Part shown: positions 1-1,925 of the stretch, piece after piece
Layout of the letters: each line of letters opens with the position of its first letter
How positions within the stretch are numbered: the stretch's first letter is position 1
Assembly: GCF_000348785.1 (NCBI RefSeq)
Contig: NC_020520.1
Location: 3,472,001 to 3,536,000, forward strand
Length of the DNA stretch: 64,000 bases
Direction: 5' to 3'
From: Ilumatobacter coccineus YM16-304
Lineage (GTDB): Bacteria; Actinomycetota; Acidimicrobiia; Acidimicrobiales; Ilumatobacteraceae
Notes under the pieces: generated by a model
Databases searched by the model: none
Told to the model about the DNA's origin: nothing
Seen by the model: only the letters and a program-made list of their open reading frames with translations
Program-made: the position numbers and the translations under genes

Positions 1-918
1 CGGATCGCCGGCGAGCTCGCGTTGTGGCCGGCCGATCCGAGCCGCATCTCGAACCGAGTCGACACCTTGCTCGAGACGGTGAGTAGTGCGGTGGCACAGT
101 TGCGACCCAGCGACGAGGAGCGAGCGAGCGGTTCGCCGCTTTGGAAGCACCGGTCGCGGCATCGCCACCTCGAGTGGGTACGCGTGCCCGTCGCCGATCT
201 GAAAGCAGCGGCGGCAGTTGCCGGCGGCACGGTGAACGACGCGTTCATGGCCGGACTCGCCGAGGCCGCATCGCGGTATCACCTCGACCGCGGGGTCGAG
301 ATCGACCACGTGAACTCGAGCTTCGTCTTGAGTACCCGTCACGATTCGAAGGCCGGCGGCAACGCCTTCACGCCGGTGCCGGTGAAGCTCCCGGCCGGAC
401 CGATGTCGATACAAGAGCGCATGTCCACCATCACCGAGACCCTCGCCGAGGCGAAGCAGACCGCGAGCAGGACCGGCGGCATGACCGCCATCTCGGGCGT
501 GGCGAACCTGCTTCCGATCTCGACCGTCACCCAGACGGCACGCGCCGCGGCGTCGCGAATCGACTTCTCGACGTCGAACCTGCGCGGCGCGCCCTTCGAG
601 GTGTACTGCTCCGGGGCGAAGGTGCTGGCGACGATTCCGATGGGCCCGGTAGCCGGCACGGGAGCGAACATCACCGCGCTGTCGCTCGACGGTCAACTCG
701 ACATCGGCATCTTCATCGACCCGGCGGCGATCACCGAGCCCGAGGCCTTCCGTACGGCGATCGAAGCGTCGTTCGCCGACATGTTCGCGGCAGCGGTGCC
801 CGCACCGCGACCGCGCAAGCAGCGTGCTGCCAAGAAGACCGCGACGAAGAAACGAGCGGCGAAGAAGGCCGCAACGAAGAAGACCGCGGCGAAGAAACGA
901 GCTGCCACCAAGAAGTGA
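1..918 (+). CDS. Wax ester synthase/diacylglycerol acyltransferase (WS/DGAT), C-terminal part, with Lys/Ala-rich tail
   Basis: This family esterifies fatty alcohols or diacylglycerol with acyl-CoA and makes storage wax esters or triacylglycerol at the membrane or lipid-droplet surface. The frame is open to base 1, so the N-terminal half with the HHxxxDG active site lies outside the window. The visible part has the typical C-terminal WS/DGAT features: NDAFMAGLAEA, SNLRGAPFEVYCSGAKV near nt 574-630, and GANITALSLDGQLDIG near 663-707. From about nt 805 the protein ends in some 36 residues rich in Lys and Ala (AAKKTATKK-type repeats), like the tail of actinobacterial HupB or histone H1. Such a tail is not normal for the family. 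The family call is firm; the role of the tail is unknown. Confidence 0.85.
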   Translation, partial: RIAGELALWPADPSRISNRVDTLLETVSSAVAQLRPSDEERASGSPLWKHRSRHRHLEWVRVPVADLKAAAAVAGGTVNDAFMAGLAEAASRYHLDRGVEIDHVNSSFVLSTRHDSKAGGNAFTPVPVKLPAGPMSIQERMSTITETLAEAKQTASRTGGMTAISGVANLLPISTVTQTARAAASRIDFSTSNLRGAPFEVYCSGAKVLATIPMGPVAGTGANITALSLDGQLDIGIFIDPAAITEPEAFRTAIEASFADMFAAAVPAPRPRKQRAAKKTATKKRAAKKAATKKTAAKKRAATKK

Positions 919-972
919 TCGGCGAAGCAGCGTGCTGCCGAGCAGGCCGACGCAGCGACGACGTAGCGCTCA

Positions 973-992: not shown

Positions 993-1925
993 TCAGCGTT
1001 CGAGCAGATCGAACAACAGATGCGGATGCGTGAGCGCCACGTGATGGCCGGCGCCGTCGACGTCGACGATCGTCGCCCGGCGAGCGACGGCGGTGAGATG
1101 CGCTCGGTCCCCGATCGGATCGTCGGCGCCACGGAAGACGGTCACCGGCGTGTCGATCGCGAACAGCTCACGCCAGTCGGCGTCGAGCACCAGTTCGTGG
1201 AGCGAACCGTCGAAGGCTTCCCAGGTGTGCAGGCTCGCCCGTCTGCTCACGTCGGTCGGCCAGCGAGGTGAGGCCGCGGCCATCAGCCAGCCGGCGACGC
1301 GGCGGTGTTCACAGTTGAGCCGGCACAGGCGCCTCGACCACTCGTTGTCGGCGACGAGCAGCTTCGTCATGCCGCCCGCTTCGTCGGCGATCTGCTGCGC
1401 GGCGTCGGCCGACTCGTAGACGGGCGGCCCCCAGAGCACCACGCCGGTCGCCCGGTCGGGGTGCCGTTTCGCCCAGGCCAACGCGACCGCGGAGCCCATC
1501 GAGTGCGCTGCGATCAACACGCGCGATCGGCCGGCTCCGAGCGACTCGAGCACCCCGTCGATCGCGTCGACGTGCGCATCGAGGCCGAAGTCGGTGCGGA
1601 GTTCGTCGAGCGAGCGACCGAAGCCGAGCAGGTCGGGCATCACCAGTCGGTGGTCGATCGCTATGCCTTCGTAGATGTCGCCGAAGTAGTCGGCGGTGGC
1701 TCCCAGGCCGTGGAGCACGACGACGACTTCGGGGTCGTCGGGGTGGAGCCGATCGGACGGAGCGCCGCCCTCGAGCATGCCGAGTCCGCCGGTGACGCGA
1801 CCGGGGAACGACGACGGGTTCCACACCTTCACCAGCGGTGAGCGGCGCTGCATTATCTCCCACACGATGAGTGCCGTGATCGCCACGGTGAGCAGCACGA
1901 CGACGACGGTCAGGAACAGCTGCAT
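993..1925 (-). CDS. Membrane-anchored alpha/beta hydrolase
   Basis: This is a 310-residue serine hydrolase of the alpha/beta fold. Residues 3-23 form one hydrophobic helix (LFLTVVVVLLTVAITALIVW) followed by QRR, so the enzyme is probably anchored in the membrane. The core shows the oxyanion segment VVLHGLGA, the nucleophile elbow AHSMGSA with the catalytic Ser, an acid near RGADDPIGD, and the catalytic His in GAGHHVALTHP at the end. The substrate cannot be told from sequence; esterase or lipase activity is likely. It is transcribed alone, divergent from the M23 peptidase gene at 2144. Confidence 0.8.
   Translation of the reverse strand: MQLFLTVVVVLLTVAITALIVWEIMQRRSPLVKVWNPSSFPGRVTGGLGMLEGGAPSDRLHPDDPEVVVVLHGLGATADYFGDIYEGIAIDHRLVMPDLLGFGRSLDELRTDFGLDAHVDAIDGVLESLGAGRSRVLIAAHSMGSAVALAWAKRHPDRATGVVLWGPPVYESADAAQQIADEAGGMTKLLVADNEWSRRLCRLNCEHRRVAGWLMAAASPRWPTDVSRRASLHTWEAFDGSLHELVLDADWRELFAIDTPVTVFRGADDPIGDRAHLTAVARRATIVDVDGAGHHVALTHPHLLFDLLER

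Follow-up and report, generated by a model that had tools for sequence, protein, structure and literature searches.

A predicted triacylglycerol (TAG)/wax-ester synthase of the wax ester synthase/DGAT (WS/DGAT) family, encoded at the start of the window (the whole 64,000-nucleotide stretch of Ilumatobacter coccineus YM16-304 DNA analyzed here), ends in a lysine- and alanine-rich tail, and comparison with its paralogues and relatives suggests that this fat-making enzyme may itself anchor new fat droplets to DNA. Separate KA-tailed or adaptor proteins are known to tie bacterial storage granules to the nucleoid; if the proposal is true, then with the tail as part of the synthase a droplet would arise and become attached to the chromosome in a single step, and the naturally tail-less paralogue and orthologues would be ready controls.

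Only the 3' part of the gene lies inside the window; its start codon is an ATG that has AGGAG immediately 5' (L005:5344), and its + frame is open as far as the TGA at 916-918 (Table 1). Pfam searches matched the catalytic domain PF03007 (E 3e-44; 152.1 bits against a curated cut-off of 23.6) and the C-terminal domain PF06974 (E 6e-19; 68.9 bits against a curated cut-off of 20.7). The HHxxxDG active site is intact (HHSVSDG at residue 144), and H144, H145, D149 and G150 are invariant among 29 aligned sequences. The AlphaFold model of the protein matches 6chj and 7nxg best, which have the WS/DGAT fold. By domains, motif and fold the window protein is thus a WS/DGAT, with TAG/wax-ester synthesis as its predicted activity. 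The match to NCBIfam TIGR02946 was full-length but scored 268 bits, below the curated cut-off of 309.95; the protein is therefore a divergent member of the wider WS/DGAT family. Directly 5' of the gene lies a HAD/acyltransferase fusion (PF12710 + PF01553, LPA-acyltransferase type), a copy of which is found on the same strand in 30 of the 36 orthologous loci; the gap is 85 nt or less at nearly all loci where it was measurable. This arrangement fits a putative glycerolipid/TAG operon.

Table 1. Features of the window gene and its surroundings, WS/DGAT paralogues, and other KA-repeat proteins of the genome. Positions without a prefix are window positions, except for the paralogues, which are named by genome position; the KA-repeat proteins named are among the matches listed.
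Feature	Position	Strand	Remarks
WS/DGAT gene, 3' part	1..918	+	524 aa in all; start 657 nt upstream of the window
PF06974, WS/DGAT C-terminal domain	358..783	+	residues 339-480, Pfam search
Terminal part of the last core helix, then a short Ala/Pro linker	784..807	+	residues 481-488; model confidence drops
Lys/Ala-rich tail	808..915	+	residues 489-524; pentapeptide units [AT]KK[TRA]A
Stop codon TGA	916..918	+	
In-frame remnant past the stop (SAKQRAAEQADAATT*)	919..966	+	open up to the next in-frame TAG
Alpha/beta hydrolase (possible lipase/esterase)	993..1925	-	convergent, downstream; outside the tail
WS/DGAT paralogue	315613		tailed: AASKKRSGTKRAAAKKKRSTS
WS/DGAT paralogue	3843506 (G000:3843506)		tailed: AKKAATKKTATKKTATKKAATKKTAAKKTVKKKSSKKS
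WS/DGAT paralogue	1734567		tail-less, ends at the core
TopA			KA repeats at C-terminus
Ku			KA repeats at C-terminus
IF2			KA repeats in N-terminal part
NYN/S1 RNA-binding protein			bears KA repeats
Protein with long KA N-terminus			DksA/TraR-like by eye
HC2-like 130-aa protein	L147:3960-4370, G000 about 1669.0-1669.4 kb	+	AAKKAPAKKK repeats nearly throughout; E 2e-6, under cut-off
Long-type catalase (PF00199, PF18011)	L289:789-3068, G000 about 4488.8-4491.1 kb	-	N-terminal KA repeat MPSNTTKNAAKKNAAKKNAAKKSAAKK...
Phasin-like coiled coil, KA tail	L145:3971-4534, G000:2764970-2765533	+	TIGR01837 E 7e-4, under cut-off
215-aa conserved protein	L288:2248-2901, G000 about 2861.2-2861.9 kb	-	helical-looking N-terminal part, Pro-rich linker, KA tail
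Small protein, about 116 aa	L228:19026-19631	+	phasin-/HBHA-like by eye, short KA tail; from the unbiased sample

The tail (RPRKQ-RAAKKTATKKRAAKKAATKKTAAKKRAATKK) holds 13 lysines, 5 arginines and no acidic residue among its 36 residues, giving a net charge of about +18. The preliminary description had claimed a histone-like Lys/Ala tail of about 36 C-terminal residues on a WS/DGAT, and this is confirmed by the reading frame, the composition and the Pfam matches; the likeness to HupB and histones also holds, the tail being of low-complexity K/A composition with KK-spaced repeats. In the AlphaFold model, pLDDT is about 50 over the tail, and a helix at residues 501-521 has low confidence. In a Pfam search the HC2 profile PF07382 had no match to the window protein at E 0.1; the same profile does match other KA proteins of the genome. 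At the DNA level, positions 832-896 form a degenerate 15-nt tandem repeat (4.3 copies, 75% match), and the Ala and Thr codons differ among the repeat units. Beyond the stop codon, positions 925-939 are an exact in-frame 15-nt duplicate of the tail start at 817-831 (AAGCAGCGTGCTGCC), and the alignment of a KA query runs across the stop. The duplicate argues that the end of the tail is still turning over, and suggests that repeat turnover has probably reshaped it. A frame or sequencing artefact was ruled out by the single-contig genome, the position of the tail after the end of a folded domain, the varying Ala/Thr codons and the occurrence of similar tails in other species.

The rarity of such a tail was assessed against the genome (4,830,181 bp, one contig), in whose proteome Lys makes up 1.74% and Arg 7.2% of residues. 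At that Lys frequency the binomial chance of at least 13 lysines in 36 residues is about 2e-14. As a base rate, 20-kb stretches were sampled at 40 evenly spaced sites in this genome, yielding 583 crude gene calls; none of these had 10 or more lysines within the last 40 residues, and 4 passed a looser threshold (6 or more K together with 9 or more K+R over that span). With the window gene left out, two of three DGATs were K-tailed versus 4 of the 583 sampled genes (Fisher p 2.6e-4). Two trivial explanations were ruled out in this way: an artefact of GC-rich base composition, since the proteome is just 1.7% Lys and the tail is rich in AAG, and a proteome-wide habit, since K-rich C-termini are rare among the sampled gene calls.

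PF03007 identified four WS/DGATs in the genome, and three of the four carry tails. A total of 74 relatives of the window protein were found, and the window type comprised 35 full-length sequences, the window protein included. The nearest orthologues, at 66-70% identity (L017, L068, L133, L134, L135 and L142), end at the core without a tail, and the near orthologue L138 ends in just ATKK; K-rich tails reappear in distant window-type relatives at 53-58% identity (L018, L026, L029, L031 and L039). By these comparisons the tail of the window gene is species-specific, with only scattered recurrence in distant orthologues, and that the nearest orthologues lack it argues for a recent or dispensable tail. 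The 3843506 paralogue has long K-rich tails in all seven of its genus orthologues, and family-wide 17 of 23 orthologues of this type are tailed and one more partially so. These tails run from about 30 to about 100 residues, diverge in sequence and lack a common register. For the 315613 type, whose membership by best match is loosely defined, 8 of 39 sequences were tailed and 5 partially tailed; for the 1734567 type, tails were found in none of 39 sequences. Outside the Ilumatobacteraceae, a family of actinobacteria from sea and soil, KA tails occurred at 2 of 22 class-level loci (L252 and L255) and on none of 28 WS/DGATs in the phylum sample. A general habit of WS/DGAT ends was ruled out by the 1734567 type and by this phylum sample, and the 1734567 counts likewise argue against a general drift at the ends of WS/DGATs. 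No tail domain that is shared and can be aligned was seen; the tails are alike in make-up only. At one locus (L124/L165, G005:C9), the KA tail of an orthologue passes into a frame reading EEEGCR shortly before its end; the cause is a genuine frameshift or else an error in the assembly.

The tail could have arisen as a nearly neutral side effect when AAG/GCN repeats expanded at the gene end, where they are tolerated after a finished domain. On a FastTree tree built from 106 sequences, tail presence switches 13 times or more, and this instability, together with the degenerate tandem repeat, the duplicate just beyond the stop and the tail-less nearest orthologues, speaks for neutral expansion. 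However, the tail type is rare in the proteome yet repeated on WS/DGATs, all genus orthologues of the 3843506 paralogue are K-rich, and Ala/Thr codons in the tails are mixed about as much as in the core, which argues that the tails are not fresh expansions; neutral expansion is accordingly considered improbable. In the 3843506 paralogue, the comparisons indicate that the tail is kept across the Ilumatobacteraceae by composition and not by sequence. The persistence of K-rich tails without a common register, where genomic Lys is rare, points to selection on charge, and a composition that is maintained argues that the tail does something. The preliminary description, whose interpretation is partly supported, had proposed a survey of WS/DGAT C-termini, and this bore out a tail that recurs on the WS/DGATs of Ilumatobacteraceae and is conserved within the lineage. 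It had also taken loss of the tail in all close homologues as evidence against a role; such loss holds for the window gene within the genus, but the 3843506 paralogue keeps its tail. The tail of the window gene, missing from its nearest orthologues, thus appears to be a recent or unstable copy of the device.

Other KA-repeat proteins of the genome were gathered by pattern and protein searches, which supplement the sampled base rate (Table 1). Among the matches listed, most KA repeats belong to nucleic-acid proteins, to WS/DGATs, or to proteins that appear to be of granules or droplets. A catalase also carries a KA repeat, so such tags extend beyond DNA and granule proteins; the repeat might place the catalase on DNA. 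The term 'phasin-like' rests on general appearance, as Pfam and NCBIfam gave sub-threshold matches only. The phasin-like protein at L145, present in 8 of 10 genus genomes, is a candidate counterpart of MLDS or PhaF, and the 215-aa protein at L288 is a candidate for another droplet or granule tether. The genus conserves both (G000:2764970 and about G000:2861247), and those orthologues whose full frames were read have KA tails. The proteins at L288 and L228 had no family match in the Pfam and NCBIfam searches.

Taken together, these data lead us to favor, tentatively, the reading that the tail acts as a DNA-binding tether, like MLDS, PhaF, AlgP and PhaM, but as part of a TAG synthase; this reading may quite possibly hold. 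The tail would be a disordered polycationic arm on the synthase, and its KK-containing pentapeptides would most likely bind DNA without sequence specificity; the enzyme, presumably sitting on a newly forming lipid droplet or the inner membrane face, would then hold the droplet against the nucleoid. This reading is favored by the tails on three of the genome's own four WS/DGATs, by the conservation of the 3843506 type set beside the tail-less 1734567 type, and by the placement of KA repeats mostly on nucleic-acid proteins and conserved phasin-like proteins. It is also favored by precedent: the Lys-rich C-terminus of MLDS binds DNA and ties droplets to it, and K-to-E mutation abolishes binding (PMC5504291), so that the preliminary description's appeal to MLDS was apt; the KPAA domains of AlgP and PhaF reportedly bind DNA and position granules of polyphosphate and PHA, respectively (PMC9239181); and PhaM binds both PHB synthase and DNA, leaving granules attached to the nucleoid (PMC3556143). 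However, the reading is weakened by the tail-less nearest orthologues of the window gene, by a tail of 36 aa that is shorter than the 154-aa domain of AlgP, by the KA-tailed phasin-like proteins that the genome already has and that would be able to do the job, by the catalase, which removes any exclusivity to DNA or granule proteins, and by the missing Pfam HC2 match. A wider proposal, held with more doubt, is that in the Ilumatobacteraceae the storage-fat enzyme is itself the chromosome tether, so that droplets would be born on DNA and shared out at division, the charged arm being free to vary in sequence and length.

The main rival to a DNA tether is acidic-lipid binding, which the preliminary description also named: the natural ligand would be not DNA but acidic phospholipids in the inner membrane or the droplet monolayer, and by binding them the tail would bring the enzyme to its substrate or seed droplets. 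WS/DGATs work at membrane and droplet surfaces, and the possible helix in the model would suit such a role. The precedent is equally direct: in HBHA, a TadA/MLDS homologue, the Lys-rich methylated C-terminus is needed for PI/PIP2 binding and for lipid inclusions; however, charge by itself is insufficient and methylation is required (PMC6176652). The same genome, moreover, puts KA repeats mainly on nucleic-acid proteins, and no tail is needed by the 1734567 paralogue or by any WS/DGAT that the phylum search sampled outside the family. Lipid binding is thus judged somewhat unlikely, and the sequence cannot decide between it and a DNA tether. Binding of another polyanion (polyphosphate, or RNA/ribosomes), or an effect on protein stability or interaction, is very unlikely; AlgP, which has repeats of this type, is located on polyphosphate granules (PMC9239181), and KA repeats also occur on IF2 and the S1/NYN protein, but a specific link of the tailed enzymes to polyphosphate or RNA is absent.

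No report of a lysine-rich tail on a WS/DGAT was found in the literature searched. The WS/DGATs of Marinobacter (6CHJ) and Acinetobacter (7NXG) share the catalytic fold and sequence family of the window protein; their solved chains, at 455 and 463 aa, are shorter than its 524 aa, a comparison of overall length. HupB, histone H1 and chlamydial HC2 share the amino-acid make-up and KK-spaced repeats of the tail; however, they are dedicated chromatin proteins, and the window protein lacks an HC2 model score. MLDS of Rhodococcus jostii RHA1 (ro02104), TadA and HBHA have, like the window tail, a Lys/Ala-rich C-terminal repeat (PAKKA motifs), which binds DNA or acidic lipid on a TAG droplet protein. 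MLDS coats droplets and has no catalytic role, whereas the window repeat is on a TAG/wax-ester synthase of a different family; with a WS/DGAT in place of the non-catalytic droplet-targeting region in its N-terminal part, the window protein is not a member of the MLDS/TadA/HBHA family and may only work alike. In Pseudomonas PhaF and AlgP, and in Ralstonia PhaM, KPAA/KA-type repeats or a DNA-binding adaptor join storage granules to the nucleoid; these are separate phasin-type or adaptor proteins acting on PHA or polyphosphate, whereas in the window case the granule would be TAG, and tether and synthase would be one chain.
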